Below the pieces are notes generated by a model. The model had not been told where the DNA came from and made no database searches. It saw only the letters and a list, made by a program, of their open reading frames with translations. 64,000 nt of DNA, from NCBI RefSeq assembly GCF_030296775.1, contig NZ_AP027742.1, forward strand, positions 1,550,001 to 1,614,000, given 5' to 3'. Of this stretch, positions 12,094 through 40,195 are shown piece after piece; position 1 is the stretch's first letter, and every line of letters starts with the position of its first letter. The DNA is from Claveliimonas bilis (GTDB lineage: Bacteria > Bacillota > Clostridia > Lachnospirales > Lachnospiraceae). The position numbers and the translations under genes were made by a program.

Positions 12094-12271
12094 AGAAATA
12101 TTATTATTGTGCTAAGAAATCTAAGTATGTTCACTTTGTTTTATAAGAAATTTTTTCGGATTATTAAATGAATGATTGTTTCATATGAGATTGAAATCTT
12201 GTTGTGATCTTATTAGATATTAAAATAATTCAGAAAGAAGTTGATTTGTTAAATAAAGTAGGAGGGAGCAG
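12094..12271. other. Intergenic gap inside the glycan operon
   Basis: The 178-bp gap separates the Wzx/Wzy part of the operon from the Capsule_synth/NeuA/NeuB part. It is very AT-rich. A weak promoter-like pair, TTGAAA and TAGATA at 17-nt spacing around 12191-12219, could start a second transcript; no terminator hairpin with a T-run is visible. Confidence 0.35.
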
Positions 12272-19125: not shown

Positions 19126-19921
19126 CTGTTTCTCCCTGTGGGTAAAGGTCAGGGTGCTTCAGCCGGTACGATTCCCCGCGGAAAGAGTAACACTTGGCAT
19201 GGTGCAGGATCCGATCCAGCATTGCAGTGGTAAGTACCGGATCCCCCATCATCTCAGCCCAGTCAACGATCTCTTTGTTGGTGGTAAAGATGATAGAACT
19301 GGTTTCATAGGTATCACTGATAAATGTGAAAAATCTGTTTGCCTGTCCGCGGCTGATCGGTGTGTAGCCGATCTCATCAATTATGACAAGCTGTGCTTTC
19401 TTGATATTTTTGAGCCGGAATCCGGCTGCACGCTCTGTCTCTGCGGTATCAAGGATCTTGATCAGACTGGTCATCTTCTCAAAACATACAGTATAGCCGC
19501 TGTTGACAGCCTGCAGACCAAGGCCACAGGCAACCATGGTCTTGCCGAGGCCCGGAGGCCCCGCAAAGACAAGGTTTCCGCAGTTGTCCAGCCAGGACAG
19601 TTCTTTCAAAACGGAGAGCTGTGCGTGGGTGATACCTGACTCCAGCTCTTCCGGATCAAACTCTTCCAGCGGCCGGATATTTGGTGGAAAATGCGCCGCG
19701 GAATAGTTACGCTTCCGACGCCGTTCATTCCGCCCTTTGACTTCGGTCTCAAGAACGGCCAGAAGAAATTCCCTGCAGGAGGAGTCCTGCAGATCCGCAG
19801 TTTCCAGAAGATCCGGAAGCATGCGCGCCGCGTGCTTTAAGGTAAATGTTTCGAGCAACGCTGTGAGCCGCTGTACAGGGATATGGCCGGTATCCATACT
19901 TTTTAAGATTTCACGGTTCAT
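19118..19921 (-). CDS. istB: IS21-family helper ATPase IstB
   Basis: A 267-residue AAA+ ATPase (DnaC-like) that assists the IstA transposase in target capture. Walker A is FAGPPGLGKTMVACGLG, Walker B is QLVIIDEIGYTP, and the sensor region FTTNKEIVDWAEMMGDPVL is typical. Its start overlaps the end of istA by 4 nt (ATGA), giving coupled translation. Length equals the normal family length, so it appears intact. Confidence 0.93.
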   Translation of the reverse strand: MNREILKSMDTGHIPVQRLTALLETFTLKHAARMLPDLLETADLQDSSCREFLLAVLETEVKGRNERRRKRNYSAAHFPPNIRPLEEFDPEELESGITHAQLSVLKELSWLDNCGNLVFAGPPGLGKTMVACGLGLQAVNSGYTVCFEKMTSLIKILDTAETERAAGFRLKNIKKAQLVIIDEIGYTPISRGQANRFFTFISDTYETSSIIFTTNKEIVDWAEMMGDPVLTTAMLDRILHHAKCYSFRGESYRLKHPDLYPQGETGM

Positions 19922-24872: not shown

Positions 24873-25599
24873 GACTACTGATATCTATGAGATGTTGGAC
24901 ACACTATCCCTGCCGGTAGCCGCCCAGCGTTTCGCAGAACTGTCTAAAAGCCCTGAATTCGGCAGCTATACCGCTTTGCAGTTTATCCGTGAGGTTCTGG
25001 AACCTCAGTACATAGAAACACTCAACAACAGGTTTGAAACAAATCTGCGGCTCAGCAGCCTGATCAATAAAGGTGCTTTGGCCGAGAATCTGAAAACCGG
25101 CAACGGACGCATCTACAATGATGCCACCGTTGAACAGATCCTGAAATTTCATTTCGCTGAGAACCGGCAGAACGTCGGGATCTATGGAGTCACCGGTGCC
25201 GGCAAGTCTTATTTCCTGTCTGCCTGTTGTGTGGAAGCATGCAGACGTAATTACCGTTGTAAGTTCGTAGACTATAGTGACCTGCTGGACGAACTGATCG
25301 TCCTCAACCGCCAGGAAGACCTAAACAAGTATCGTAAGAGGATCAGATACTATGCACGGATCCAGCTGCTGTTCATTGATGATTTTGCCATAAGCAGGTA
25401 TTCAGAAGAAGGGATCAAGATTCTGTATCATCTCATAAAACTTCGGGATGACCTTGGCACCTCCACACTCTTCAGCTGTCAGTATTCTCCAGATGAGTGG
25501 GGAAATCAGCTGAGTGACGAAAAGGAATGCTACGGTAAGCTTGACGGGATCAGACGCAGACTAACGACAGGATTTACTGTACTTATTGAGAAAGCATAG
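24862..25599 (+). CDS. istB: IS21-family helper ATPase IstB, second type
   Basis: A 245-residue AAA+ ATPase with Walker A IYGVTGAGKSYFLSACC and Walker B QLLFIDDFAISRY. It is translationally coupled to istA through an 11-nt overlap. Length and motifs are complete. It belongs to the same element that split the holin gene. Confidence 0.9.
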   Translation: MKNKTTDIYEMLDTLSLPVAAQRFAELSKSPEFGSYTALQFIREVLEPQYIETLNNRFETNLRLSSLINKGALAENLKTGNGRIYNDATVEQILKFHFAENRQNVGIYGVTGAGKSYFLSACCVEACRRNYRCKFVDYSDLLDELIVLNRQEDLNKYRKRIRYYARIQLLFIDDFAISRYSEEGIKILYHLIKLRDDLGTSTLFSCQYSPDEWGNQLSDEKECYGKLDGIRRRLTTGFTVLIEKA

Positions 25600-26018: not shown

Positions 26019-26327
26019 ATGAGCTTATTGGAAAATGCGGTTGCGCAAGAGCAACGGCGGATTGAGTATATGATAGAAAAATACGAGACAGAGCTGGCTG
26101 ATTTGCCGAAAGGTGTGTTAATCGCCAAAATGATTAAAGGAAATCAATATTATTATTTGCAGTATCGCAGCGGGAAGAAGACAATTTCAGAGTATATTGG
26201 GAGAAAAAGCGATAAAGTTGAAAAAGTACAGCAGCAGATTGAACGGCGTAGGCATATCCAGTCCATGCTGAAAGCCTTGTCTGAAGAATATGCTACAGCA
26301 CAGAAAATGATGGAGGTTTGTATATGA
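26019..26327 (+). CDS. Small helical protein, first gene of the DUF3990 module
   Basis: A 102-residue protein. A central motif KMIKGNQYYYLQYRSGKKTISEYIG is common to small proteins of unknown function often found beside toxin-like or nucleotidyltransferase genes; both ends form long charged helices (EQRRIEYMIEKYETEL; KVEKVQQQIERRRHIQSMLK), likely coiled coil. Its stop overlaps the next start (ATGA), so the two are translated together. It could be an antitoxin or accessory factor; the function is not known. Confidence 0.65.
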   Translation: MSLLENAVAQEQRRIEYMIEKYETELADLPKGVLIAKMIKGNQYYYLQYRSGKKTISEYIGRKSDKVEKVQQQIERRRHIQSMLKALSEEYATAQKMMEVCI

Positions 26328-26827
26328 TTGTATATCATGGAAGTAATATGATAGTAGACCATCCAAGATTAGTTCGCCAAAATCGGACATTGGATTTTGG
26401 ATATGGTTTTTATACAACGTTCAATAAAGATCAAGCAGTAAATTTCGCAGAGAAAGTAACGGCTCGAAGGGAAACAGGTATTTCTTGTGTCAGCATGTAT
26501 GAAACAGCAGAGTTAGAAGAACTGAAAAACAAATATAAACTCCTGTTTTTTTCAGAAGCAAATGAGGAATGGTTGGATTTCGTATTTGCAAATCGTAATG
26601 GAAGTTATGAAGGGGTAAATTATGATATTATTTTCGGACCAGTAGCTAACGATACAATTTATCGGACGTTTATCGCTTATGAGGAAGGTATTTTAACAAA
26701 GGATGAGACGATTGCCAGACTGAAAGTTAAGAAGCTGTATAATCAGATGACTTTTACAACAGAGAATTCCTTAAAAGAGCTAAAATATATAGGGCAGTTG
26801 CCGATAGGGAGGGATTGCAATGAGTGA
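26324..26827 (+). CDS. DUF3990 protein, putative ADP-ribosyltransferase-fold toxin
   Basis: A 167-residue DUF3990 protein. The N-terminus (IVYHGSNMIVDHPRL, then LDFGYGFYTTFNKDQAVNFAEKV) shows the H-G-S/T and YTT-like elements of ADP-ribosyltransferase folds (RNase/DarT/Rifampin-ART relatives), with NYDIIFGPVANDTIYRTF downstream. Start ATG 26324 has TGGAGG upstream. DUF3990 genes are frequently next to DUF3791 genes, as here, and are suspected toxin-antitoxin modules. Enzyme activity and target are inferred, not shown. Confidence 0.75.
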   Translation: MIVYHGSNMIVDHPRLVRQNRTLDFGYGFYTTFNKDQAVNFAEKVTARRETGISCVSMYETAELEELKNKYKLLFFSEANEEWLDFVFANRNGSYEGVNYDIIFGPVANDTIYRTFIAYEEGILTKDETIARLKVKKLYNQMTFTTENSLKELKYIGQLPIGRDCNE

Positions 26828-27897: not shown

Positions 27898-28177
27898 ATG
27901 GAAGACATTATAGAGTATTATAATATTGGACATTTTATAGAAGAAAAAGATAAGATTAATAATAGTATTTTCAATTATGAAGAAGAAAAATTGAAAGAGT
28001 ATGAAAAGAAGATTAAGCAAGTGACTGGAAAATTTATGAATTCCATAGATGACTCGAACTGTAAAGAAATTTATGATCAACTGGATATAGGATGGAGAGA
28101 AGACTTTTGGAAATTATTTGCTGAATTTAAAGTGTATAGCCATGTTGGAGAAAGAGCTTTTGAAGATATAGCAAACA
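27898..28177 (+). pseudogene. Internal fragment of an unknown helical protein
   Basis: An open frame rich in Lys/Glu helices (EDIIEYYNIGHFIEEKDKIN; WREDFWKLFAEFKVYSHVGE). It is open upstream of the ATG to 27865 and is broken at the 3' side by an IS21-type end near 28178; the last codons come from the IS. It looks like part of a larger protein, not recognised. Confidence 0.5.
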
Positions 28178-28268
28178 GCCGCATTTCCCGGCCAATCAGG
28201 GCCATATTAAACGGCCAGTTTTAGAGATAGGCAGGGCAGAGAGGGGGCTCCGCCCTGCTAATCAGTAG
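28178..28268 (-). mobile_element. Decayed end of an IS21-family element related to element 2
   Basis: The stretch GCATTTCCCGGCCAATCAGG and the following ATATTAAACGGCCAG match the complement of the right end of IS21 element 2, but with GGCCA where element 2 has GGACA. About 90 bp remain, with no istA/istB. Confidence 0.7.
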
Positions 28269-28666: not shown

Positions 28667-29191
28667 ATGATTATGATGAGGATATTTTATAGATTTATTT
28701 TGACATTTAATTCACTCCTTTTATTATTGGTGGTATATCTCATAAAATCTCATATATGGATATGGGAACAGGAACAATGGTCTATTGCTGTTTATCTGCT
28801 TGTTCCGATTACTTTGTCAATAGTATGTATAAAGATTTCGGATTTTTTGAGTTTGGATTCGATTGAATATGTGCAAACTATAGAAGTGGGGGAAGAGTCT
28901 TATATGGCTGTATATTTGGGATATTTCTTTGTGGGAACAAGCATTTCAGATGGAGATTGGATAACATTAATTTGTGTTTTTGGGATGATTTTCCTTTTCG
29001 TTTTTTGTTCCCAGGCGCAGTATTTTAATCCGATTTTTCTACTGCTGGGTTATAAGTTTTATGGTGTTACGAAAGAAAATGGGGTGAAAATATTTGTGAT
29101 TTCTAAAAGGCGCATACAGGAAACGGAAGGATTACAATTTTTGGATTTACGAAGAATTAACGATTTTACTTTTATCGATAAGGGGTGTTAG
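28667..29191 (+). CDS. kwaA: KwaA-like membrane protein of a Kiwa-type defence system
   Basis: A 174-residue membrane protein with about four hydrophobic segments (FILTFNSLLLLLVVYLI; WSIAVYLLVPITLSIVCI; WITLICVFGMIFLFVF) and a C-terminal YFNPIFLLLGYKFYGVTKEN followed by KIFVISKR, a pattern I associate with KwaA. In Kiwa, the membrane protein KwaA senses phage-induced changes at the inner membrane and works with KwaB. The partner-like gene follows after 3 nt. Several closely spaced ATGs (28667, 28673, 28676) make the exact start uncertain. Assignment rests on size, topology, C-terminal motif and pairing. Confidence 0.68.
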   Translation: MIMMRIFYRFILTFNSLLLLLVVYLIKSHIWIWEQEQWSIAVYLLVPITLSIVCIKISDFLSLDSIEYVQTIEVGEESYMAVYLGYFFVGTSISDGDWITLICVFGMIFLFVFCSQAQYFNPIFLLLGYKFYGVTKENGVKIFVISKRRIQETEGLQFLDLRRINDFTFIDKGC

Positions 29192-29194: not shown

Positions 29195-30019
29195 ATGGAT
29201 CACTTATTCGCAAGAATGAAAGGTCGAATAGAAAAATATGAAAAAATATTATCTGGAAAGACTATATATGAAAGACCAGAGGATATAGAAAATGCAGTAG
29301 AATATGATGTGGATTATAAACTTGAGGAAGATGAATGGTATGCCGTGAAAAGCCTGTCAAAAAAGGATTTTTGTTTACAATTTTTGGGAGCACCTATTGA
29401 CTCTACTACATATGCACAGATGAAGAAAGGGGATATAAATCAGATTCAATATCTTTGTGCATATCAGTCGGGAAATGAATTTTATTTTCAGAGAGCAATG
29501 GAAAGTAGAATTATGCGAAAGCAAAAATTTCTTGATTGCTCAGGAGATTTTAAAATTGAAGAAACAGGACAAGGTATTATTATCAATAAAATTCCTGATG
29601 CCATTTATCTGCGAGAGAGGGATATTCTATATTTTAAGAAGTTGGAGACAATTTCGCCGATTTTTAAAGGGATTGATAAGTTATATCGAGAAGCTACAGG
29701 AGAAGAAGTTGAGAAGTTTCTTGATAAGAAATTTATAAAGCTTGGGAATGATTACAATGTAAACAGGGTAGGAAAAGCCAACAGAAAGAGAATTGCATTG
29801 GCGATGGATACATTAGTTAAATTAAATAAAACTGAAAAAAAAGAGTTGTTTATATACACAAATGACTATTTCCCAGGACTAAAATATAATGGAAAATCAT
29901 TTGAAATAAATAACGAAGAAGATTTGAAAAAGCTTCTTTATGGTATAGAACAAAGGTGTTATACAACGCCGATTACAAATGAGAAGCGAGTGGCAAATTC
30001 AGTTTACAAGCTAGAATGA
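29195..30019 (+). CDS. kwaB: KwaB-like (DUF4868) protein of a Kiwa-type defence system
   Basis: A 274-residue cytoplasmic protein. The C-terminal half shows a DUF4868-like pattern: IIINKIPDAIYLRERDILYF, then IFKGIDKLYREATGEEVEKFL, KRIALAMDTLVKLNKTEKKE and a final LLYGIEQRCYTTPITNEKRV. KwaB binds DNA in the Kiwa complex and limits phage replication; known proteins are about 300 residues, slightly longer. It is tightly coupled to the KwaA-like gene. The 3' end is 23 nt before the left site of the putative invertible cassette, so read-through may enter that cassette. Confidence 0.68.
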   Translation: MDHLFARMKGRIEKYEKILSGKTIYERPEDIENAVEYDVDYKLEEDEWYAVKSLSKKDFCLQFLGAPIDSTTYAQMKKGDINQIQYLCAYQSGNEFYFQRAMESRIMRKQKFLDCSGDFKIEETGQGIIINKIPDAIYLRERDILYFKKLETISPIFKGIDKLYREATGEEVEKFLDKKFIKLGNDYNVNRVGKANRKRIALAMDTLVKLNKTEKKELFIYTNDYFPGLKYNGKSFEINNEEDLKKLLYGIEQRCYTTPITNEKRVANSVYKLE

Positions 30020-30042
30020 TGTGAGAATAGTTGAAGATTATG

Positions 30043-30065
30043 AAGGATAATTAGCAGTTATCCTT
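30043..30065 (+). repeat. Left inversion-site candidate of the 6.5-kb cassette
   Basis: Twenty-three bp: perfect 8-bp arms AAGGATAA and TTATCCTT around a 7-bp spacer TTAGCAG. The 17-bp core GATAATTAGCAGTTATC (30046-30062) occurs in inverted orientation, without mismatch, at 36528-36544. Same 8-7-8 layout as the promoter repeats at 356 and 603, but a different sequence. Confidence 0.78.
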
Positions 30066-30074
30066 TATCTATTA

Positions 30075-30104
30075 TTATGGTTTAAAGAACGATCATGCTA
30101 TAAT
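30075..30104 (+). promoter_or_regulatory. Extended -10 promoter just inside the cassette
   Basis: TGCTATAAT gives an extended -10 with perfect TATAAT at 30099-30104; the -35 (TTATGG, 30075-30080, 18-nt spacer) is weak. It faces the acyltransferase and STAND-nuclease genes. Confidence 0.55.
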
Positions 30105-30138
30105 AAAAGGGAAACAAATCATTTAATGGGGTGGCGTT

Positions 30139-30798
30139 ATGAGAAAAATAATTAGCTTTTTCCAAAAAAATACGAAAGCCAAAAAGATGTTTCTATACAG
30201 ACTTTTAACTTATTTTCCCAATAGATGTCAATATGGCAGGTTCGAAAAAAGCTCTTTGATATATTTTCCAATGTTGGTAAACAATAAAAAATGTATATTA
30301 ATTGGAGAAAATGTGACTTTTCGGGAGCGACTTCGTATGGACGCGATAAAATGCATGAATGATCAGGTCTTTCATCCTCGCATCATTATTGAGGACAATG
30401 TTCATGCCGAACAGGATTGTCAGATATTCGCTACAAATCTCGTGCATATCAAAAAAAACGTAACATTATCTTCCCATGTTTTTATAACTGATGCAGAGCA
30501 TGAATACCGAGGAGTGGAACATGAGAGTATATTAAAACAAAGATTAAAATGCGGTAAAACCATTATAGATGAAGAAGCGTTTCTGGGAATCGGCGTGCGA
30601 GTCATTAAAGCTGTACATATCGGAAAACATGCTGTGATTGGTGCGAATTCTGTCGTAACAAAAGATATTCCCGCATACAGCGTAGCCGTGGGCAATCCGG
30701 CAAAAATAATTCGTAAATATAATCACCAAACAAAACAATGGGAAGCTGTATCATTTGATACCGGAGAGCGTTATGAAGTATTTGACAGAAGCCTTTAA
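30139..30798 (+). CDS. Hexapeptide-repeat acyltransferase (maltose/galactoside O-acetyltransferase-like)
   Basis: A 219-residue left-handed beta-helix acyltransferase. Repeats run from CILIGENVTFRERLRMDAI; the catalytic His is in ITDAEHEYRG; the C-terminal helix-coil has IGVRVIKAVHIGKHAVIGAN and AVGNPAKIIRKY. First gene inside the putative invertible cassette; it overlaps the STAND-nuclease gene by 26 nt, implying coupled translation. Its likely substrate is a surface sugar, but linkage to a defence gene makes other roles possible. Confidence 0.85.
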   Translation: MRKIISFFQKNTKAKKMFLYRLLTYFPNRCQYGRFEKSSLIYFPMLVNNKKCILIGENVTFRERLRMDAIKCMNDQVFHPRIIIEDNVHAEQDCQIFATNLVHIKKNVTLSSHVFITDAEHEYRGVEHESILKQRLKCGKTIIDEEAFLGIGVRVIKAVHIGKHAVIGANSVVTKDIPAYSVAVGNPAKIIRKYNHQTKQWEAVSFDTGERYEVFDRSL

Positions 30799-33700
30799 AA
30801 ATGAATTTATAGAATATAAGCAAAAAAAGAAAATCTATTCAGGGGTATTATTTGAAAATCTAGTATCGATGCTGCTGGAGGAACTTTTTCCATCATTTTC
30901 GTGGCAGAACACACCGGTTACGCACGATGGAAGCAAAGATTTTTATGCTCAGTATGATGAAACATTGTACTGGGCAGAATGTAAAAACTATAGTGATAAA
31001 ATATCGCTTCAAGCAATTGCTCCGACATTGGTTATGGCACAATTATGTAATGCTGATGAGATTTATTTTTTTTCGCGATCAGAAATAAAAACCAATGTAA
31101 AAAAGAAACTTTGCTATTATGCCAATATTAACCGTAAAAAAATAAGGTTTTATGACGATGTTGCACTTGAGCAGATAATTTTTGAACATAAGCGGGTATA
31201 TGATCATTTTTTTAAGTCATACCGGTTTTCGGACGTGGATTTCCAGCAAGAAACAACGCCTCTGATTCTTTATAATTATTTAAAAAATCCATTTTTGAAT
31301 CTAAAAAAAGGAGAATCTTTTTTTTCTGCAAATAACCTTCCGGAATTCAGAACAAACGAGATTATTTCAATCCATATATACGGCATTAATAACAACAGCA
31401 GAAAAAGTGCTGTATTTACTGTGCGGATTAACGCAGACAGCAAAGATTTACTGTGCTTTGAATTGCTGGATGAATATATGAAACGAAGCAATATCATTAA
31501 TTATTGCTATTCAGCAAAAACAGCCCCCAACGAAACATTTTTTCATAGCATTAATTTAAAAATTCTATCGCACGAAACTCAGTTGCAGCTTCCGGAATTA
31601 ATCGTAAATGTAGTACAAGAGGATTATACCAAAAGCCAAAAATTGGGAGGGATGAACTTTCAGTGCGCATTATTACATAGAGCTGAATTTCTCGATCCTT
31701 ATTATCAAAATATCCTTTATGTATTAGAACAAGAAATGCTGGATCTTAATGTATTGTCGGGGATTCTCCTGATAGGAAGCAGCGGTACCGGAAAAACAAG
31801 AACTCTTGAAGAAACGCTCTCACTCTTGGTTAAGTATAATTATCGGGTATTAAATTTTATCGGAGTAGAACATGATTCCGGCAAAAGCATTCTAAAGGAA
31901 ATCATTTATATTTTATTTGAAGTAAGTGAAGAATTAATTATGGAATCCTTTACTATCAAGGACACATCCGATTCACTTTCGGGTATTTTTGAAATGTTAT
32001 ATAAAATGAATCATAATTTAATCGACCCTATAGATATAACGGATCAATATGGAGAATTAATATTTGAACGTATGATTCATGGGAAATATGCGCTTGTCAT
32101 CGACAACATTCAGTATTTTGAGTATCCCCTTTTGCACTTTTTAGAAAAATTAATTATATATGGGAAAAACTGTGGAAGAGGGAACTCGCTGTTTTTAGCT
32201 TTTAGCATAAATACAGATTATGCTTTTGACAATGAGGATATCACCAAAATTAAAGGCCTGTTTCAACAGCTTCAACATACTAGTGTTTGCAAAATGACTC
32301 CATGGTTTCTGGATGGCTTTCATAGTCCTGGAAGCGCATTGGAATTCATCAAACAACTACTGGGAATTCATAATGCGAATTATGATGCTCTTTTCCAAAA
32401 GGTTTTCGATAAAGCATCCCTGCTTCCTTTTTATATTGAGTGTGTTGTTGAAGTTCTCCGTAATTTCAAATCCGTTACTTTCTCGGAGTCACGTTGCGTT
32501 ATCAATAACCCTGTGCTTTTCGCAGATGAATTAGCAAATTTACCGGACAGTGTAGAAGGAAATCTTGAAAGACGATGGAAATTCTTTATCAGTCAACACT
32601 CAAATAAAGATGATTATGTCAGATTGCTTTCATTAGTACATACATTTGGAGAATGCGAAAAGGATTTCATGAAGAGTCTGGGATTAAATACTGCATTACT
32701 AAAGGATTTATGTAAATACCATTTTTTAAAACAGGAAAAAACAGTAAATACAGACAAATATACCTTTGTCCATGACTTAATGGAGAAATTTTTCTGCGAA
32801 TATATTCCGGATTTTGATAATATCGCCTATGATTATTTAACAAAGTCAGGTTATAAACATCTGAAAAATTTATACCCTGTTATATACAACCTGTGCATTT
32901 TATATTCAAAAGACTATAAACCTGAAAATTTAACAACCATCATACAAGTGGGGATTCATATAGAAATTCCATACAAGATCTTTTATAGTTATTATAAGAA
33001 TTGTATGAATGCCATGCTGGAAAATTATGAAAATTTTCAATGTAAAAATGATTGGTATGGTCTGGGATATTTTATTGCAAAACAGTTGAAACTCCGCATG
33101 GGAAACAAAGCCGCATATGATATGATCAGCAAACTGTTTTGTACATTAGAAGCAGGGAGCTTTGAAGACAGGTATTGCTATAACAGTTTCGTGGAGTTAC
33201 TATTTTTCTATGGCGAAATCAACCAGCAACTCACCTATTATCAAGATGTTATATCTTTGTATTTAAAGTATCTTGATCGTTACAAAATCCTGGAAAAATC
33301 CGAATCTACGGAAGAAATTCGCAATGTCATTGCCTTTATTTACAACCGTTTGTCAGTGGCCTATAAACATTTACCAGATTCTGTAAGTTGTAAAAAGCAT
33401 CTGGACTACATCAACCAGTCGCTGTACATGTCCCGTACCCTGAAAAACCGCCAGTTTCTAGCTGAAAACTGCTATGATAAGGGGACTTATTATTACTGTC
33501 ACATCAAATATAAAAAACGAGTTCTTGATTACTGGGAATCCTGTTGCAATTTAATAGAAAAATATAATATTGAACTGATGACTCTTCATTACATTGAGCA
33601 TCAGATCCAAATCGCTTTGATTCGTCAACAACCAAACGAAATTCCTCAATTACTCGAAAAAGGGTTTGATTATATAGAGCATGGCAAATACAATGAACAA

Positions 33701-34180
33701 GGTATTTACTTCAAACGTTTTTTTTATTATGCAAAAGCAATTTACTATCTGTTGAAAAAAACAAACTATGATGACGTTTATCAGGCGTTACAAAACGCAG
33801 AAGAAGCTTTACTAATGCTTGGGAAGAATAATATGACCTATATTAATTACCTGCGCGGGAAATTGTATGCACGTCTTAACGACCCTGAGCACACGTATGA
33901 GTTTTACAAAGACGCTTATCTGCAATCCTTCGACCTGACAATTTTGTATAAAGATATATTTATTGATCTTTTGACAGAAGATATGCTGATTAAGTTCCGT
34001 CAATTAAATATAGACCCGGAACGGTTCCCGGTTGATTATTTAGAAAAAGAAAATCATCGTCTTATGGCAAAACGTATATTGTCAATGGATCAAAAACATT
34101 TTTTGCGGTTTTGGAATAATTATCGAGCTACATCTATTATACAATCGCTGGACGGGAAAGAAAATTACCCTAATATATAA
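30773..34180 (+). CDS. Avs-like STAND NTPase with N-terminal PD-(D/E)XK (Mrr-type) nuclease domain
   Basis: A 1135-residue protein. N-terminal nuclease: GVLFENLV (Glu28), DGSKDF (Asp56), WAECKN (Glu69-x-Lys71) and Gln80 fit the Mrr-type E-D-ExK-Q pattern. A STAND/AAA-type NTPase follows: Walker A IGSSGTGKTRTLEE (about residue 335), Walker B YALVIDNIQYFEY. From about residue 640 to the end are helical repeats resembling TPR (for example NVIAFIYNRLSVAYKHLPDS). Nuclease-NTPase-TPR is the layout of Avs (AVAST) antiphage sensors. ATG 30773 follows GGAG; the upstream TTG at 30755 is less likely. Function is inferred from architecture. Confidence 0.82.
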   Translation: MKYLTEAFKNEFIEYKQKKKIYSGVLFENLVSMLLEELFPSFSWQNTPVTHDGSKDFYAQYDETLYWAECKNYSDKISLQAIAPTLVMAQLCNADEIYFFSRSEIKTNVKKKLCYYANINRKKIRFYDDVALEQIIFEHKRVYDHFFKSYRFSDVDFQQETTPLILYNYLKNPFLNLKKGESFFSANNLPEFRTNEIISIHIYGINNNSRKSAVFTVRINADSKDLLCFELLDEYMKRSNIINYCYSAKTAPNETFFHSINLKILSHETQLQLPELIVNVVQEDYTKSQKLGGMNFQCALLHRAEFLDPYYQNILYVLEQEMLDLNVLSGILLIGSSGTGKTRTLEETLSLLVKYNYRVLNFIGVEHDSGKSILKEIIYILFEVSEELIMESFTIKDTSDSLSGIFEMLYKMNHNLIDPIDITDQYGELIFERMIHGKYALVIDNIQYFEYPLLHFLEKLIIYGKNCGRGNSLFLAFSINTDYAFDNEDITKIKGLFQQLQHTSVCKMTPWFLDGFHSPGSALEFIKQLLGIHNANYDALFQKVFDKASLLPFYIECVVEVLRNFKSVTFSESRCVINNPVLFADELANLPDSVEGNLERRWKFFISQHSNKDDYVRLLSLVHTFGECEKDFMKSLGLNTALLKDLCKYHFLKQEKTVNTDKYTFVHDLMEKFFCEYIPDFDNIAYDYLTKSGYKHLKNLYPVIYNLCILYSKDYKPENLTTIIQVGIHIEIPYKIFYSYYKNCMNAMLENYENFQCKNDWYGLGYFIAKQLKLRMGNKAAYDMISKLFCTLEAGSFEDRYCYNSFVELLFFYGEINQQLTYYQDVISLYLKYLDRYKILEKSESTEEIRNVIAFIYNRLSVAYKHLPDSVSCKKHLDYINQSLYMSRTLKNRQFLAENCYDKGTYYYCHIKYKKRVLDYWESCCNLIEKYNIELMTLHYIEHQIQIALIRQQPNEIPQLLEKGFDYIEHGKYNEQGIYFKRFFYYAKAIYYLLKKTNYDDVYQALQNAEEALLMLGKNNMTYINYLRGKLYARLNDPEHTYEFYKDAYLQSFDLTILYKDIFIDLLTEDMLIKFRQLNIDPERFPVDYLEKENHRLMAKRILSMDQKHFLRFWNNYRATSIIQSLDGKENYPNI

Positions 34181-34187
34181 CAAAAAG

Positions 34188-34225
34188 CAGGGCTTCTTTG
34201 CAAAATCTATGTGCAAGAAGCCCTG
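34188..34225. terminator. Bidirectional terminator between convergent operons
   Basis: CAGGGCTTCTTTGCA pairs with TGTGCAAGAAGCCCTG across a short loop. It lies between the stop of the STAND nuclease (34180) and the stop of the converging glycosyltransferase (34230). Only short T/A tracts follow, so strength is uncertain. Confidence 0.65.
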
Positions 34226-34229
34226 AAAG

Positions 34230-35366
34230 TTAATATAATTTTTGTACATCGTGAAAAGATAGAATGTTTCCATGAAAATCAACGGCAATATCTCTGGAAG
34301 TATCTCGTAAATGATCCCAGATTTTATTATCCCTTAAACTTTTCAGCTGATCGACAAAATAGATAAAAGGGGCAGTATGCTTATGAAAGCTAAGAGGAAT
34401 GTAATCATATAACTGTAATTGTTTTATCCAGCGTTCATACGGATTAAATGAATAAACATCATAATATTCAATAGATAATGCATCTTTAATAGTTTCATAG
34501 TACCAATCGCTGCTGAAAAAACTGGAAATATTGATCATTGTATATCTGGGAAGCAATTCGTGATCAGACTGATACATTTCTCCCACTTTATGTATCCATT
34601 TATCCATATCAATTTCAATTTTATAATAGTTCTTTCCATAAAACATAGACCGTGCATCTGCGGCCAGATAGGAATATCTGCTGATTTTTGTGTTGCGGGA
34701 AGAGGTGTTGCCCTTGTGATAGACTTTCGATTCTGCAACAACCCATGTTTCCAGCCCGATTTCCTTTAATTTGATTACATAATCGCAATCACAGCATAAG
34801 TACGACATTGAGACGTCCATTCCGCCAACCTTCTGGTAAATACGTTTGGTTGTCATTAGCACCGCACTGCATACAGATTGAACTTTACGGTCAAAAGAAG
34901 CATATCGATGATCTGCAGGCAGTCCCAATGTTGGATGGTTAATATTGTATGGAGAAAAGGCCACCCCAAAGTCCTGAATTGTATTATCAGAAGGATTGAT
35001 TAATTTCGAACTTACAGCTCCTATCAAACCACTGGAATTCAACTTTTCAAACAGTGGTTCATACCAATGTGGAAGGTAGAATAAATCTTCATCACATAAT
35101 GTGACAATATCCCCATTACATACATCCACTCCCATATTGACTGCGTTCGCGTATAAAATATCATCATTCACTTTAATAATGGTATATTTAGATTCCGGAA
35201 GGTCTAAATCCAGCTCTTTCTCGTCTTTATTGTTTGCAACAATAATTATTTCCTTTTTTATATCTGAAGGCAATGTTTCTTCCAAAAGTTTAAGATTCAG
35301 ATATAATAGTTCACGGTTAGAGTGATAAGGAATCACAAAACTATGTAGACACTCATTTATCTTCAT
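34230..35366 (-). CDS. Family 2-like glycosyltransferase
   Basis: A 378-residue protein with a GT-A domain in the first 230 residues: HSFVIPYHSNRELLYLNLKL, IIIVANNKDEKEL, YANAVNMGVDVCNGDIVTLC followed by DEDLFYLPHW (metal-site region), VSSKLINPSDNTIQDFGVAF and GGMDVSMSYLCCDCDYVIKL. The C-terminal 150 residues are not recognised (YYDVYSFNPYERWIKQLQLY). It lies 8 nt after the epimerase gene on the same strand, so they form an operon inside the cassette. Confidence 0.82.
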   Translation of the reverse strand: MKINECLHSFVIPYHSNRELLYLNLKLLEETLPSDIKKEIIIVANNKDEKELDLDLPESKYTIIKVNDDILYANAVNMGVDVCNGDIVTLCDEDLFYLPHWYEPLFEKLNSSGLIGAVSSKLINPSDNTIQDFGVAFSPYNINHPTLGLPADHRYASFDRKVQSVCSAVLMTTKRIYQKVGGMDVSMSYLCCDCDYVIKLKEIGLETWVVAESKVYHKGNTSSRNTKISRYSYLAADARSMFYGKNYYKIEIDMDKWIHKVGEMYQSDHELLPRYTMINISSFFSSDWYYETIKDALSIEYYDVYSFNPYERWIKQLQLYDYIPLSFHKHTAPFIYFVDQLKSLRDNKIWDHLRDTSRDIAVDFHGNILSFHDVQKLY

Positions 35367-35374
35367 TTTGTATG

Positions 35375-36499
35375 CTAAGATTTTAAAATCCCTTTTCCTT
35401 TCATAATATTCAACGATTCTTCATAGTGATTATTTGAAAAACTATTTTGCTTAGTCCAGTCTGTAAATTTTAGAAGTCCTTCTTCCAAAGATACTTTTGG
35501 TTCATATCCAAGCACATGTTTCATTCGGCTTATATCCGCATGGTTATGCCGGATATCTCCAAGGCGATACATATGGTTGATATGGTAATTTGGAGGTTCT
35601 CCATAGTAAAAATAAAGAAGTTTTGTCAATTCTAATATTGTTGTATTATGTCCGGTCCCAACATTAAAAACTGTATTTGAAGCTTCTCCGTTAATCGCAA
35701 GTAAAACTGCCCTTACAACATCTTCTACATGAACAAAATCTCTTGATTCCATTCCGTCTTCAAAAATTTCGATAGGTTTGCCGGACATAATATTCGATGA
35801 AAATACGGAGAGAATGCCTGTATATGGGTTGATAAGAGATTGTCCTTCTCCATAAACATTCTGGAATCTGAGAATCGTATATGGAATATTCATAGCTTTA
35901 CATATCGTACGAAGATACAATTCTTGCGTCATCTTTGTTACTCCATAAATGGATTGCGGTTTTAACTCCGATTCCTCACAGGTTGCGGTCTGTTTTAGAA
36001 ACCCGCTGCATATGGGACAACGTGGCTCATAAATACGATGTTTTAAGTCCTCTGAACAGCGCCCGTCGGGATATACGATTCCGCACTGTGGACAAATGTA
36101 TTTACCTTCTCCATAAACAGCTCTGGATGAAGCAAGGACAAGTTGGTCTATTTTTGTGTGCTGATTACAGATCGCTTGTAAAAGATTTGCAATGCCCGAG
36201 ATATTGCTATTTGTGCATTTTGTAATCTCGTACATGGATTGACCAGTTGCAGTATCAGCCGCCAGATGTATAATTACATCCTGATTTTGAACAGCCTGTT
36301 CACATATGTGATAATCAAAGATGTCTCCTTGTATAAAATTGACATATGGGCTGACAGAAAGGTCTAGTTTTGCATTTGGCCCATGAACTTGAGGATCTAA
36401 GTTATCAAGGATTGTAATCTGGCAATTCATCTGTAATAATTTTTTGACCAGATGTACACCGATAAATCCGGCGCCACCTGTCACCAATACGCGTTTCAT
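35375..36499 (-). CDS. NAD-dependent nucleotide-sugar epimerase/dehydratase with Cys4 insertion
   Basis: A 374-residue extended short-chain dehydrogenase: NAD-binding TGGAGFIGVHLVKKL, LDNLDPQVHG, HLAADTATGQSMYE and active-site SIYGVTKMTQE (YxxxK). Between them sits an insertion with four cysteines (CPQC and CPIC, residues about 140-180), probably a zinc ribbon, seen in some dTDP-rhamnose 4-epimerase-like enzymes. Start at 36499 (GGGAGGG upstream) is preferred to 36523. Its first codons lie 26 nt from the right inversion site. Substrate unknown. Confidence 0.86.
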   Translation of the reverse strand: MKRVLVTGGAGFIGVHLVKKLLQMNCQITILDNLDPQVHGPNAKLDLSVSPYVNFIQGDIFDYHICEQAVQNQDVIIHLAADTATGQSMYEITKCTNSNISGIANLLQAICNQHTKIDQLVLASSRAVYGEGKYICPQCGIVYPDGRCSEDLKHRIYEPRCPICSGFLKQTATCEESELKPQSIYGVTKMTQELYLRTICKAMNIPYTILRFQNVYGEGQSLINPYTGILSVFSSNIMSGKPIEIFEDGMESRDFVHVEDVVRAVLLAINGEASNTVFNVGTGHNTTILELTKLLYFYYGEPPNYHINHMYRLGDIRHNHADISRMKHVLGYEPKVSLEEGLLKFTDWTKQNSFSNNHYEESLNIMKGKGILKS

Positions 36500-36524
36500 A
36501 GATCCCTCCCTTTGTTTGTTCAAT

Positions 36525-36547
36525 AAAGATAACTGCTAATTATCTTC
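36525..36547 (-). repeat. Right inversion-site candidate of the 6.5-kb cassette
   Basis: Arms AAAGATAA and TTATCTTC around spacer CTGCTAA. Its complement shares the 17-bp core GATAATTAGCAGTTATC exactly with 30046-30062 and 20 of 23 bp overall. Recombination of the two would invert about 6.46 kb. Confidence 0.78.
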
Positions 36548-36598
36548 GATTCTGGGATAAAAAAGTGAGGACTTTATAACTGACGGATACTGCGGAAA

Positions 36599-36628
36599 AT
36601 AATACAGTAAAATGCTATATCAAATCAA
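36599..36628 (-). promoter_or_regulatory. Minus-strand promoter candidate outside the right inversion site
   Basis: On the minus strand TTGATT (36623-36628) and TATTAT (36599-36604) with an 18-nt spacer. It would transcribe into the cassette and, in the present orientation, into the epimerase-glycosyltransferase operon. A perfect 10-bp inverted repeat, AGTAAAATGC at 36606-36615 and GCATTTTACT at 36643-36652, brackets the -35 and could be an operator. Confidence 0.5.
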
Positions 36629-36783
36629 AAAGTTGAAGTGGGGCATTTTACTTTAATTAGAATTGAACGACTTGCAATAAGATAGCCGTTATTTTACTGA
36701 GAGATTACAAAAAAGAAATGCGTATTAGGTAATTTTTTGTGAATATGCTACACTACCGAAAAAAGGTTATGGAGGACAGAAAA

Positions 36784-37701
36784 GTGGCTTGTACGGAACA
36801 AATGAAAAAATATCTGGAATATTGTGAGTTTAGAAAGGAACTGGATTGGAATACTTTAAAAGCATACAGAATTGATTTGAGACAATTTTTTGAATATACG
36901 CTGGAAGATATACCAGACAAAGATAAAATAGAAGATTATATAACAGAATTACATAAGAAATATAAACCAAAAACTGTAAAGCGAAAAATAGCATCTATTA
37001 AGGCGTATTATACTTATTTAGAAGAAAGGGATATTATTACAGACAATCCATTTAGAAAAATAAAAGTAAAATTTAAAGAGTCGGTAATTCTTCCCAGAAT
37101 TATCCCACGGGAAGAAATTGAACAGCTTTTGAATTATATGTATTTACAAGAGAATAAAAATGATGAAAAGGTTTATAAATACTGGCTGCGGGATGTGTCA
37201 GTGATAGAAACTTTTTTTGCTACCGGCGCAAGGGTTTACGAAATATCCAATATTAGAGCAGATAGTGTAAACCTTAATACAGGGCTTATCAAAATTATGG
37301 GGAAGGGTGGAAAAGAGCGATATATCCAAATTGCTTCGACAGAAATATTGGGTATCTTAAGAAAATATTATCATCAAAATGCCGAAGTGATTAAGGAGAG
37401 TGGATTTTTCTTTGTTAATAACCGTGGAAGCAGATATACGGAACAATCAATAAGGCTAATGTTAAAAAAGTATACAAAATTAGCCGGGATTGAAAGAAAT
37501 ATAACACCGCATATGTTTCGTCACTCATTTGCAACATATTTGATTGAAGAAGGAGTAGATGTCAGTTGTGTACAGCAGATCTTAGGACATAGTTCTATTA
37601 AAACTACCCAGATTTATATACATATTGCGGCAAAAAAGCAAGCGGAGATTTTGAGGGAGCTGCATCCCAGAAATCGGATGAGGATAGGGGAAGCGGCATA
37701 A
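36784..37701 (+). CDS. Tyrosine recombinase (XerC/D-like, site-specific integrase)
   Basis: A 305-residue recombinase. N-terminal SAM-like core-binding domain (YLEYCEFRKELDWNTLKAYR), then a catalytic domain with all residues: Arg in FFATGARVYEISNI, Lys in MGKGGKERYIQIA, HMFRHSFATYLIEEG (His-x-x-Arg), and LGHSSIKTTQIYIHI (His and nucleophile Tyr). GTG 36784 is proposed because GGAGG lies 8 nt upstream; ATG 36769 and 36745 are alternatives. It is the only complete recombinase in the window, and stands 240 nt from the right 8-7-8 site, as expected for a DNA invertase of its neighbouring cassette. Confidence 0.88.
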   Translation: MACTEQMKKYLEYCEFRKELDWNTLKAYRIDLRQFFEYTLEDIPDKDKIEDYITELHKKYKPKTVKRKIASIKAYYTYLEERDIITDNPFRKIKVKFKESVILPRIIPREEIEQLLNYMYLQENKNDEKVYKYWLRDVSVIETFFATGARVYEISNIRADSVNLNTGLIKIMGKGGKERYIQIASTEILGILRKYYHQNAEVIKESGFFFVNNRGSRYTEQSIRLMLKKYTKLAGIERNITPHMFRHSFATYLIEEGVDVSCVQQILGHSSIKTTQIYIHIAAKKQAEILRELHPRNRMRIGEAA

Positions 37702-38082: not shown

Positions 38083-38964
38083 ATGGGGAAAGAGGCGCAA
38101 GATGCCAGAAACTTTACCGCACCAGTGGAAGATCATGAGCTTGGAATTCGATATGAAAAGTATAAGCGGATCCTTGCGGGACTTACGATCATGAGTGATA
38201 TTTTCATGCGGAATGTCTTGAAAAAGCGGGAATGCACAGAGTATATTTTGCGAATCATTATGGACAGAGAAGATTTGGAAGTGAAGGAGCAGATTCTGCA
38301 GAAGGATTATAAGAATCTGCAGGGAAGATCAGCCATTCTTGACAGCGTTGTTTGTGATATGGAAGAGAAACGGTATAATGTAGAGATTCAGCAGGAAAAC
38401 GAAGGGGCTTCCGTAAAAAGAGCGAGATATCACAGTAGCCTGCTAGATGTAAACGAGTTGAAGGAAGGACAGACTTTTGAGGAACTGCCAGAGAGTTATG
38501 TGATTTTTATTGCCAGAAACGATGTGCTTGGCTATGGACTTCCCATTTATCATATTACTAAAAAGGTTGAAGAAGTGCGGGAGGATTTCCGAGACGGTGC
38601 TCACATTATCTATGTGAATGCAAAAATCAAGGATAAAGAGACAGCATTGGGGCGCTTGATGTATGATCTGCAATGAAGAACTGCAGACGAAATGTTTAGC
38701 GAGATTCTGGCAGAGCGTGTCAGGGAGTTAAAGGAAACGCCGGAAGGAGTGGACAGTATGTGTCGTGAGATGGACGAGATTTACAATGAAGGAATTGAGA
38801 TTGGAATTGAGAGAGGACTGGAGAAAGGAAAAATGGAAATGAAACAGGAAACGGTTCTATCTATGTTCAATCTTGGCATGCCGGTGGAGCAGATTGCAGC
38901 AGTAGTGAAAGAAAGCGTTGGTATGGTTCAGAAGTGGATTTCCGAAAGTAAGGCAGTAATATAA
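38083..38964 (+). pseudogene. Rpn-family nuclease/transposase-like gene with an in-frame stop
   Basis: One continuous frame of 293 codons broken only by TGA at 38674-38676 (YDLQ-stop-RTADEMF). N-terminal nuclease part: RYEKYKRILAGLTIMSDIFM, SVVCDMEEKRYNVEIQQENE (likely PD-(D/E)XK core with ExQ), and LDVNELKEGQTFEELPESYV. The C-terminal part includes a tail EQIAAVVKESVGMVQKWISE shared with two other genes here. The stop probably replaced a Cys or similar codon, so the gene is inactivated or only recently decayed. Confidence 0.8.
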
Positions 38965-39698
38965 GGAAAACTGCGGTTGGACCGTATATGTCACACTAAA
39001 AATAAGGAGTTTAGAGGGGAAGTAAGAGCAGATATTAATTTCCGTAAATCAGGTCTTTACTTTCCCTCTTTTTTGTTCTATAATAAAATTATGTAAATTA
39101 ATAAAAAGGGCAGATGGAATATGAGAAAGGCCGTCTATCCTTGACGATGAATAGAGATATAGCCTGGAGCAGATTCTTTCCGTGATAGCCAATCAGATAC
39201 TGTAATGATAGATTGTTACTTATTTTCAGCAACAGAATGGAAGAGGAGTGAATATGAGAAACACGGGAATCAAGCCTGACGCTATATTTAAAAATTTTTG
39301 GAGAGATAACGGACATTTTGCCAGTCTCTTTAACACAGCTATCTTTGGCGGAAAGACAGTGATACAGCCGGAGGAGCTGAAGGAGTTGGATACAGATGTA
39401 TCTAATTTCATAAAATTTGGAAAGTATGAAGAAAGTTTGACAAGAACCAGAGATGTTGTGAAAAAAGCGGCTAACGACACAGATTTTGTGATACTGGGAA
39501 TTGAGAACCAGCGGAAGATCCACTATGGGATGCCGCTGAGAGTTATGATTTATGATGCGCTAAGTTACCTGAAAGAATGTCAGGAAATTGCAGGGAAGCA
39601 TAAGGAAGCTGGTGATAAGGCGACCGCTGAAGAGTTTCTTTCCGGCCTGCATAAAGGGGACCGGCTGCATCCTATTATAACCATTGTGATCTATTATG
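38857..39698 (+). repeat. Direct repeat B (840 bp), partner at 18139-18979
   Basis: Uninterrupted copy of the repeat. It spans the Rpn gene tail, a terminator, the intergenic region and the first half of the next Rpn gene. The two copies lie 20.7 kb apart in the same orientation, so recombination between them would delete or duplicate the defence area between. Confidence 0.9.
39014..39074 (+). terminator. Intrinsic terminator (copy in repeat B)
   Basis: GAGGGGAAGTAAGA pairs with TCTTTACTTTCCCTC and is followed by TTTTTTG. Ends transcription of the Rpn gene at 38083. Confidence 0.75.
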
Positions 39699-40195
39699 AT
39701 GAAAAGCCGTGGGATGGAGCACAGAGCCTGAAGGAAATGATCGGAGATATGCCCTCGGAGGTTTCCGGAGTGTTTTCGGATTATCGGATGAATCTGCTGC
39801 AGGTGAAGGAGTCATCCCAATATCATTTTGATAATGAAGATGTCCAGACCATTTTTGAAATCACCAGATTTATTTATCAGGGTGAATTTGATAAGGTAAA
39901 GAAATTTTATGGAGAAAAAACAGTGAAATCCGACGTGGGTGCGGTGATCGGAGTTATGACAGATAGCAGCCTGATCGTTGAAGAGGCCTTGGAGAGTGAA
40001 GGAGGAATGAATATGTGTACGGCATTAGAGAAACTGGAAGAAAAGAGTCGTGAGGAAGGAAGATTAGAAATGAAACAGGAAACGGTTCTATCCATGGCCA
40101 ATCTTGGCATGCCTGTAGAGCAGATTGCAACAGTAGTGAAAGAGAGCGTTGGTATAGTCCAGAAGTGGATTTCCGAAGGAAAAGCAGCGATATAA
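39254..40195 (+). CDS. Rpn-family recombination-promoting nuclease/putative transposase
   Basis: A 313-residue protein of the PD-(D/E)XK nuclease-like Rpn family (PF04754/PF12784 type). It has KNFWRDNGHFASLFNT, DFVILGIENQRKIHYGMPLR (E-x-Q catalytic-like), YDALSYLKECQEIAG, and RLHPIITIVIYYDEKPWDGA, ending in the shared tail EQIATVVKESVGIVQKWISE. Rpn proteins promote RecA-independent recombination and are abundant in Lachnospiraceae. ATG 39254 has AGAGGAG 5 nt upstream. It is intact, unlike the truncated copy at 18535, and is the last gene of the accessory region before rplS. Confidence 0.88.
   Translation: MRNTGIKPDAIFKNFWRDNGHFASLFNTAIFGGKTVIQPEELKELDTDVSNFIKFGKYEESLTRTRDVVKKAANDTDFVILGIENQRKIHYGMPLRVMIYDALSYLKECQEIAGKHKEAGDKATAEEFLSGLHKGDRLHPIITIVIYYDEKPWDGAQSLKEMIGDMPSEVSGVFSDYRMNLLQVKESSQYHFDNEDVQTIFEITRFIYQGEFDKVKKFYGEKTVKSDVGAVIGVMTDSSLIVEEALESEGGMNMCTALEKLEEKSREEGRLEMKQETVLSMANLGMPVEQIATVVKESVGIVQKWISEGKAAI

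Follow-up and report, generated by a model that had tools for sequence, protein, structure and literature searches.

DNA inversion is a familiar source of variation in surface proteins, capsules, and restriction specificity. The G segment of phage Mu and the C segment of phage P1 are invertible, alternative gene sets expressed from outside; in these segments and in the P segment of e14, serine recombinases exchange tail-fiber parts. PsrA, the pneumococcal invertase, is reportedly a tyrosine recombinase, the CwpV genetic switch works by inversion, and the pdif (dif) modules of Acinetobacter are reportedly dif/Xer-dependent mobile modules bounded by Xer-type sites. As outlined in the source, the e14 P segment is an invertible alternative gene set, and Escherichia coli PinQ/StfE2 ties recombinase-driven inversion to phage resistance: PinQ, a serine recombinase, works on a prophage segment of 1797 bp that gives rise to chimeric proteins, and these block adsorption (PMC12529663). 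C. difficile CwpV is summarized as a phase-variable antiphage surface determinant (PMC4737114), and PsrA is described in the abstract as varying hsdS, the locus that sets the specificity of a DNA methyltransferase, with a tie to an envelope modification (PMC12324116).

The locus analyzed here lies in the genome of Claveliimonas bilis (NZ_AP027742.1; 3,111,590 bases, one contig); all coordinates are positions in the window, the whole 64,000-nucleotide stretch of DNA that was analyzed. We interpret positions 30046-36544 as an invertible two-arm cassette, probably (about 0.7) a phase switch through which an immune effector and a module for envelope glycans would change places relative to outside transcription units. 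An invertible segment, alternative genes, and outside expression are the features it would share with the Mu G, P1 C, and e14 P segments, but here the recombinase is a XerD-like tyrosine recombinase, the sites are 17-bp GATAA-N7-TTATC sequences, and the arms are unrelated (immune-type nuclease versus glycan enzymes). PinQ/StfE2 is alike in its recombinase-driven inversion but, as outlined in its source, comes without a STAND-type effector or glycan enzymes. CwpV is also a clostridial phase-variable antiphage trait; its switch, however, so far as the source summarizes it, acts on a single surface protein rather than on a pair of opposed arms. The pdif modules are likewise transferred as units, whereas here a dedicated recombinase gene comes with its own site pair. 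In the PsrA system, the hsdS methyltransferase genes are inverted, and the abstract does not put an envelope enzyme inside the invertible segment (PMC12324116). A literature search by titles and the beginnings of abstracts, with subscription papers and bioRxiv mostly outside its scope, found no description of invertible cassettes in which STAND or TIR arms face enzymes.

Layout of the cassette and its flanks

The locus comprises the following features:

28667-29191, plus strand: KwaA (Kiwa), in the operon reading into the left site (PADLOC KwaA, E = 7.6e-17)
29195-30019, plus strand: KwaB (Kiwa) (PADLOC KwaB, E = 1.3e-16)
30046-36544: putative invertible segment, 6.5 kb, with two convergent arms between inverted sites
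30046-30062, plus strand: left inversion site, 17-bp core GATAATTAGCAGTTATC, exact copy
30139-30798, plus strand: hexapeptide sugar O-acyltransferase, first gene of the STAND arm (Pfam Hexapep, 3.6e-8)
30773-34180, plus strand: 1135-aa nuclease-STAND protein (PD-(D/E)XK-type nuclease, P-loop STAND NTPase, TPR-like helical repeats)
34188-34225: stable hairpin between the convergent arms (RNA fold)
34230-35366, minus strand: GT-A fold glycosyltransferase, GT2 (Pfam Glycos_transf_2, 1e-8)
35375-36499, minus strand: NAD-dependent sugar epimerase/dehydratase, first gene of the glycosyltransferase arm (Pfam Epimerase, 3.6e-48)
36528-36544, minus strand: right inversion site, 17-bp core GATAATTAGCAGTTATC, exact copy
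36599-36628, minus strand: candidate outer promoter TTGATT-18-TATTAT, reading into the right site (consensus match only)
36784-37701, plus strand: XerD-like tyrosine recombinase, presumed invertase (Pfam Phage_integrase, 5.4e-40)

The two 17-bp cores are exact, inverted, and bound the segment, as a sequence-only reading of this DNA had proposed, and they are the only exact copies in the 3.11-Mb genome. With three mismatches allowed, no third site was found within the window, and two matches were reached in 3 of 100 shuffles at this setting. Copy number and the shuffle controls reject chance or a scattered, unrelated motif, a possibility raised in that same reading, as the origin of the sites. 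The 8-bp arms it assigned to each site hold for the left one, which is perfect over 8 bp (AAGGATAA-N7-TTATCCTT, 30043-30065), but the right site has seven perfect pairs and a mismatched eighth. Gene calls agree with two convergent operons, acyltransferase plus STAND and epimerase plus glycosyltransferase. The region between them (34170-34240) folds at -22.6 kcal/mol (z = -5.0), and the hairpin is likely a terminator shared by both arms.

Avs/AVAST STAND nucleases combine an N-terminal nuclease, a STAND NTPase, and C-terminal helical repeats. The protein encoded here has the same domain order and, judging from its predicted structure (pLDDT 84.4), the Avs architecture of an effector, a STAND NTPase, and a repeat sensor, but it matches none of the PADLOC models at 0.001, including those of the described Avs families, and its gene lies opposite a glycosyltransferase gene within an invertible cassette. 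In the fold comparison, the best PDB match was 6mfv (STAND-TPR), followed by Apaf-1, with AVAST5 at rank 31; we take PDB 9nc9 to be an Avs/AVAST entry among these structures. A sequence search against solved structures gave only two weak, uninformative matches. The earlier label "Avs-like" thus fits the architecture, not the sequence. Residues D52, E69-x-K71, G335xSGxGK341, and D444 are invariant in all 18 aligned members, and the nuclease residues among them presumably form the PD-(D/E)XK-type motif. A search of 398 Bacillota genomes yielded 45 genomes with STAND matches at E ≤ 0.001; the best outside this genome (2.6e-9) and the others there are weak and cover only part of the profile, so we read them as P-loop matches and reject a wide spread in Bacillota. 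A phage origin of the cassette was also rejected: none of 50,697 phage records nearly matched its DNA, and none of three candidate stretches with STAND relatives in viral contigs was confirmed.

The other genes of the cassette are of the sugar-enzyme type. The glycosyltransferase model (pLDDT 91.9) is closest in the PDB to polypeptide GalNAc-transferases, and D92 and D94 are invariant in 16 of 16 sequences; across loci, the arm facing STAND carries glycan enzymes, namely, epimerase, WbsX, RgpF, or a second GT2. The acyltransferase matches the NCBIfam WbbJ-like model (1.4e-32) below its cut-off. In its leader, an extended -10-like element, TGCTATAAT (30096-30104), could have been an internal promoter, but this candidate was dropped because the match is not kept in L061, a related cassette in another bacterium.

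On the left, PADLOC identifies adjacent KwaA and KwaB, that is, Kiwa, although KwaA falls under the NCBIfam cut-off (19.7 vs 100 bits). On the right, the uninterrupted recombinase gene begins with an ATG at 36784, about 240 bp outside the site, where the sequence-only reading had placed it. Its sequence shows R, K, HxxR, H, and Y, which we take to be the tyrosine recombinase catalytic set, R-K-H-R-H-Y; it belongs to the tyrosine family rather than the Mu-type serine invertases, and it scores below the equivalog cut-offs for housekeeping XerD (236.6 vs 329.6 bits) and XerC (229.1 vs 335.15 bits).

The recombinase family and the coupling of the arms

At E ≤ 1e-60, the recombinase was detected in 40 of 299 Lachnospiraceae genomes, including this one and C. 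bilis c-25, and phylum-wide in 1 of 398, which is this genome. Outside this species, the recombinase was matched at 41 places, and all but one short match (G173) were taken, giving 40 loci. An inverted site pair with an identical spacer was found at 19 of the 40 loci and a direct pair at none, which argues for inversion rather than excision; 20 shuffle rounds gave 0.0 such pairs, and N6 and N8 spacings gave 0. Among the 21 loci without a strict pair, 11 have at least one site within 700 bp and 10 have none, some of the latter on long contigs. The other cassettes follow the same plan, with GATAA-N7-TTATC sites; in most of them, a protein of immune type stands opposite a biosynthetic enzyme. These listed pairs were chosen for identical spacers, and Pfam assignments cover the arms at 16 of 19 loci with a strict pair; L083 and L107 were assigned by similarity alone, and L098, a duplicate of L069, does not appear in the site list. 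The earlier reading, confined to a single cassette, did not cover this recurrence of the plan with other cargo.

The adjacent recombinase would most likely exchange strands at the 7-bp spacers of the inverted 17-bp sites. The arms start close inside the sites (28 bp on the epimerase side and 76 bp on the acyltransferase side), which suggests that they are transcribed mainly or wholly from outside, and flipping would then swap the arm that each outside unit feeds. The left site follows the KwaB stop after 26 bases; in the orientation of this strain, the Kiwa operon would read into the acyltransferase-STAND arm, and the candidate promoter on the recombinase side into the epimerase-glycosyltransferase arm. 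That promoter, proposed in the sequence-only reading, matches the consensus and is kept in c-25, where it reads into the STAND arm, but such matches do not exceed shuffles (2 found in 401 bp vs 1.3 expected).

This layout leaves some room for a tentative alternative in which both arms are always made and inversion exchanges their promoters, changing dose or timing rather than identity. The Kiwa operon reading in, the candidate promoter on the other side, and the neighbor on the non-recombinase side, which reads inward in 17 of 28 loci, are all compatible with such tuning; against it, that neighbor reads away in the other 11, and the recombinase gene, which reads inward in 23 of 30 cases, suggests that one side is driven regularly (the geometry table of 30 loci covers those with a found pair and a recombinase). 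Because the distal neighbor reads inward in only 17 of 28 loci, control by the phase switch may not be exclusively ON/OFF. The division into phage defense and surface sugar, as first proposed, is likewise unclean since the acyltransferase, a sugar-type enzyme, shares the STAND arm; the two-arm inversion itself is supported.

STAND and glycosyltransferase are inherited together, and the recombinase is not. Their distances correlate at 0.94 (P = 5e-5, 16 pairs) over STAND pairwise identities of 14-93%. At the nine loci that also have the recombinase, the STAND-glycosyltransferase correlation is 0.96, compared with 0.28 (P = 0.08) for recombinase and STAND and 0.19 (P = 0.14) for recombinase and glycosyltransferase. 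The arms would travel as one unit between recombinase/site platforms. This tight co-inheritance, and the facing of other immune-type arms by other biosynthetic enzymes, would also fit a single biochemical system in which the enzyme makes or masks a target sensed by STAND (e.g., a self-glycan); inversion would then govern autoimmunity or kin recognition, not two defenses acting separately. We consider this rather unlikely: correlated arm trees can arise from linkage alone, we know of no ligand shared by the two arms, and their opposed orientation argues against equal co-expression.

Orientation and breakpoints in relatives

If the cassette is invertible, related genomes should carry it in opposite orientations and should break at the 17-bp sites, and they do. 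C. bilis c-25 has the same flanks and sites (97.8% identity to the window up to 30063 and 93.8% from 36528), and DNA identity breaks exactly at both sites. Inside are a diverged STAND (about 24-29% identity) and glycosyltransferase (39%), opposite in orientation relative to both the recombinase and Kiwa, on arms that start 31 and 46 bp inside the sites. The L061 cassette is 92.9% identical at the DNA level over 30042-36544, site to site. There, the end of KwaB with the left site (29930-30065) matches on the other strand, beside the epimerase end, such that Kiwa and the recombinase both lie on the epimerase side and the cassette is reversed relative to Kiwa, not relative to the recombinase side. 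Because the c-25 cassette is replaced and L061 matches the KwaB end at just 69.8%, these reversals could reflect opposite insertion rather than flipping in place.

Contig ends bear on the same question. Among 48 ends (leaving out a contig chosen for carrying the site at its ends), 12 lie 0-12 bp outside a site, against 0.04 expected for random ends; the next eight 13-bp bins together hold nine. In isolate An138, the flank contig and the cassette contig overlap by 119 bp, from the first base of the site. Such stops are expected if both orientations coexist. Genome contigs gave at least 18 STAND loci; among the 19 listed, 15 have both inverted sites and four have one, with contigs ending nearby. 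Some pairs (L068, L073, L075, L076, and L078) emerged only under wider or looser criteria. The stretches analyzed for L062, L073, and L075 contained no recombinase match, and L062 and L067 showed no second site within about 150 bp past the last gene start; the single site of L062 could be due to chance.

An exchangeable integration platform, at which the sites with the recombinase or mobile elements replace whole cassettes, orientation being accidental and flipping within a lineage rare, is unlikely. It would account for the different cassettes at identical sites in two strains of one species, for a recombinase that does not co-evolve with the cargo, for a congener with the same 17-bp site beside another gene resembling GT2 by eye, and for one MAG with two different cassettes and the same 17-bp site. 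However, the matched sites are consistently inverted, contig ends coincide with them, homologous arms occur in both orientations (four ATP-grasp-type arms proximal and four distal to the recombinase), and the tail-to-tail layout is kept. Static inverted repeats without present-day recombination are highly improbable: the two complete C. bilis genomes each show a single orientation, but 10 of 11 pairs at STAND loci are exact, with 2 mismatches in 17 allowed and a spacer that varies between many loci, contigs break at sites, and the adjacent recombinase gene is uninterrupted.

The comparative evidence for inversion is strong. Across genomes, exchange boundaries fall exactly at the sites, relatives differ in orientation, and the arms are co-inherited; on these genomic grounds, the cassette very probably flips, and flipping would replace an immune-type nuclease with sugar enzymes beside a phage-defense operon.

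A wider family and its biological meaning

The cassette belongs to a wider family of two-armed cassettes that is apparently undescribed. The odds are about even that this family is a widespread flipping platform with two alternating partners: an immune sensor or effector (nuclease-STAND, TIR, NB-ARC-like, and others) and a biosynthetic enzyme inherited along with it (glycosyltransferase, ATP-grasp ligase, carbamoyltransferase, SHMT-like, or radical SAM). A dedicated recombinase of the XerD-like type would switch between the two, and labor within a clone would be divided between immunity inside the cell and modification of its chemistry or surface. The range of the platform would include Lachnospiraceae, Erysipelotrichales (Breznakia), and Azospirillum, and relatives on plasmids would occur in Campylobacterota and Bacilli. 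Because 8 of 10 further arms scanned had no PADLOC match and two had weak partial ones, the recombinase and its GATAA-N7-TTATC sites offer a search handle for candidate new defense genes and their partners.

In C. bilis, the phase switch may provide phase-variable phage defense and bet-hedging in a split clone, with some cells favoring the intracellular immune nuclease, STAND alongside Kiwa, and others an altered envelope glycan, presumably changing phage receptors. If so, innate immunity and receptor variation would be joined in one heritable choice, beside Kiwa, which would explain how costly immune effectors are carried in only part of a gut-bacterial clone.

Layout of the cassette and its surroundings

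The segment is probably an invertible two-arm cassette, an assignment that we make from sequence comparison with a probability of about 0.7. As predicted by the sequence-only reading, it is bounded by two perfect 17-bp sites in inverted orientation:

30046-30062, + strand: left inversion site, 17 bp, exact copy of GATAATTAGCAGTTATC
36528-36544, - strand: right inversion site, 17 bp, exact copy of GATAATTAGCAGTTATC

No other exact copies were found in the whole 3.11-Mb single-contig genome, so the motif is not scattered elsewhere. Gene calls and domain matches bore out the convergent arms, a hexapeptide acyltransferase plus a 1135-aa nuclease-STAND protein reading rightward and an epimerase plus a GT2 glycosyltransferase (GT) reading leftward, with a hairpin between their tails (RNA fold, -22.6 kcal/mol, z=-5.0). 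To the left lies KwaA-KwaB (Kiwa), which ends 26 bases from the left site. To the right is the gene for a XerD-like tyrosine recombinase, with its start measured about 240 bp past the right site, where it had been placed. This protein scores below the equivalog cut-offs of both XerC and XerD, and its next-best match elsewhere on the chromosome has 31% identity (E=1.9e-19).

The STAND protein was modeled as a STAND-TPR protein; from this fold and the neighboring Kiwa and two PADLOC candidate genes, a role of this arm in phage defense may be inferred. The structure model of the GT has a GT-A fold and lies close to those of polypeptide GalNAc-transferases. At other loci, WbsX, RgpF, or a second GT2 stands beside or replaces it, a context that points to envelope glycans as the likely target of the GT arm.

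The cassette sits in a small defense island with transposase genes that are IS21-like by eye (19918-21492 and 23259-25599). The PADLOC candidates next to Kiwa are PDC-M13A (DUF3990; 26318-26827) and, at 27898-28224, an ORF of 108 aa with a match to part of PDC-S56. An Rpn/PD-(D/E)XK transposase-like gene (38083-38964) consists of two ORFs, of 197 and 90 aa; its counterpart in another C. bilis strain, c-25 (NZ_AP024845.1), is a single 251-aa ORF (locus L026, 7844-8599). A similar-looking 315-aa ORF follows in the window (39248-40195).

Related cassettes and their orientation

At the c-25 locus, Kiwa and a recombinase with 98% identity lie on opposite sides of the cassette, which has the same two inverted sites. 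Flank identity with the window extends up to 30063 and resumes from 36528, that is, at the site edges. Inside, the STAND proteins are 24-29% identical and the GTs 39%, and STAND starts on the recombinase side and GT on the Kiwa side, the reverse of the window. The whole cassette recurs in an uncultured Lachnospiraceae bacterium (locus L061; 92.9% DNA identity over window 30042-36544). The KwaB end and left site of the window (29930-30065) align to the other strand of L061, at 69.8% identity and next to its epimerase gene; thus, Kiwa reads into acyltransferase-STAND in the window and into epimerase-GT in L061. Reversed cassettes, which the sequence-only reading had proposed to seek in other genomes, therefore occur in c-25, where the cassette is diverged, and in L061, relative to Kiwa. 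The L061 flanks are not a plain mirror image: the recombinase is on the Kiwa side there, and on the epimerase side in both L061 and the window.

A search of genome contigs yielded at least 18 STAND relatives. Two inverted sites are present at 15 of the 19 STAND loci (window included) and a single site at four, each on a contig that ends nearby; at L062 and L067, no second site appears in the roughly 150 bp of contig that follow the last gene start. When two mismatches were allowed in the search, 10 of 11 site pairs were exact. One spacer is common to the window, L061, and c-25, another to L063 and L066, and spacers differ among the other loci. GT faces STAND at 16 loci, window included; RgpF takes its place at L073, and the L074 and L077 loci are truncated. 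Hosts of STAND-GT cassettes include Breznakia and Azospirillum, and the nuclease and P-loop residues of STAND are invariant in all 18 aligned sequences.

STAND identity correlates with GT identity (r=0.94, P=5e-5, 16 pairs). At the nine loci with a recombinase in reach, the STAND-GT correlation is 0.96, compared with 0.28 for recombinase-STAND (P=0.08) and 0.19 for recombinase-GT (P=0.14), so the arms travel together and are not tracked by the recombinase; linkage by itself could be what holds them together. GT is proximal to the recombinase at seven loci and STAND at two.

Inversion or exchange

If both orientations coexist, assemblies are expected to break at site edges. Among the loci examined, 12 of 48 contig ends lie 0-12 bp outside a site, compared with nine in the next eight 13-bp bins together and a mean of 0.04 for random ends. 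In Lachnoclostridium sp. An138, flank and cassette contigs share a 119-bp overlap that starts exactly where the site does. The signal is indirect, and repeats, mixed strains, or the route by which loci were found could inflate it. Alternatively, the locus could be an exchangeable integration platform, with orientation an accident of insertion. We consider this unlikely, and the same-side recombinase of L061, the one-site loci, and a corrected contig-end count make it slightly less so and the invertible-cassette reading slightly less secure.

One metagenome-assembled genome carries two different cassettes with the identical 17-bp site GATAATTGTTAGTTATC (L164 and L165, on contigs C103 and C39), each a contig ending at its own sites. 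One has STAND facing ATP-grasp, the other nuclease-STAND facing WbsX plus GT; these could be separate loci, come from different strains, or reflect exchange at a single locus. In another genome of the genus (G010), a 4.4-kb contig carries the exact window site (L169, 4241-4257) beside a gene that is GT2-like by eye, with genes that are IS66-like, also by eye, close by.

Under the inversion reading, gene starts bear on how a switch might work. From site to first start codon, the window has 28 bp on the epimerase side and 76 bp on the acyltransferase side; the two distances in c-25 are 31 and 46 bp. Promoters would have little space within such leaders. At 23 of 30 loci, the recombinase gene is directed toward the cassette (within 110 bp at 17 of these 23), and the neighbor on the other side reads inward at 17 of 28. 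Given these short leaders and inward-reading genes, inversion would most likely determine the arm that is connected to the driven side. The C. bilis recombinase gene reads away from the cassette, and Kiwa reads into it from the opposite side; the outer minus-strand promoter proposed on the recombinase side does have a candidate match directed toward the cassette, but not one above chance.

The recombinase family and its cargo

At E<=1e-60, the recombinase was detected in 40 of 299 Lachnospiraceae genomes and, phylum-wide, in 1 of 398, namely, this genome. Inverted pairs with an identical 7-bp spacer (GATAA-N7-TTATC type) are present at 19 of the 40 fetched recombinase loci, and direct pairs at none of the 40; controls gave 0.0 inverted pairs for shuffles and 0 for N6 and N8 spacing. 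Among the other 21 loci, 11 have at least one site within 700 bp and 10 have none. The consensus from 25 pairs, outside to inside, is aaTGAaGGATAATtaatagTTATCcgTTaaa.

Facing arms at recombinase loci
L081: STAND vs ATP-grasp ligase
L085: TIR plus STAND vs ATP-grasp
L106: TIR-TPR vs ATP-grasp plus radical SAM
L088, L099: AAA/STAND-type (one weak Mrr nuclease match among these and L111) vs carbamoyltransferase
L111: AAA/STAND-type vs GTs
L110: weak NB-ARC match vs SHMT-like plus dehydrogenase
L105: TIR vs radical SAM
L095: TIR vs SIR2-STALD; both immune-type, outside the immune-versus-enzyme plan
Off-plan or ambiguous:
L104, L115, L112: pentapeptide-repeat proteins vs ATP-grasp/radical SAM or unnamed protein
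L109: SHMT-like vs unnamed protein
L087: unnamed protein vs ATP-grasp
L079, L083, L101, L107: unnamed 561-575-aa protein vs 337-364-aa protein clustering with ATP-grasp arms

ATP-grasp-type arms are proximal to the recombinase at four loci and distal at four. One Aliarcobacter plasmid (L119) and one from Paenibacillus (L121) encode a recombinase and a STAND-type ATPase facing ATP-grasp, within inverted repeats that are 19 and 30 bp long, respectively. In the Aliarcobacter cassette (9945-13781), the enzyme arm is annotated as ATP-grasp plus a YbaK/EbsC family protein. This family clears mischarged tRNA, perhaps a hint that the arm makes an amino-acid analogue. On a Streptococcus salivarius plasmid (L120, 7159-8917), an inverted GATAATAAATTGTTATC pair beside a related recombinase surrounds a methyltransferase gene and, opposite it, an unnamed 348-aa gene whose start is annotated 30 bp beyond the site. 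In a further genome of the genus (G004; L170, 6140-10064), an 80%-identical recombinase adjoins an inverted GATAATACCCTATTATC pair enclosing a 363-aa ORF facing an 896-aa ORF, nuclease-like by eye at its N-terminus.

Precedents exist for DNA inversion, for alternative gene sets, and for phase-variable phage resistance, each on its own (PMC12529663, PMC4737114, and PMC12324116). In line with the sequence-only reading, the literature searched yielded no account of an invertible cassette in which an immune effector and an enzyme form the two opposed arms.
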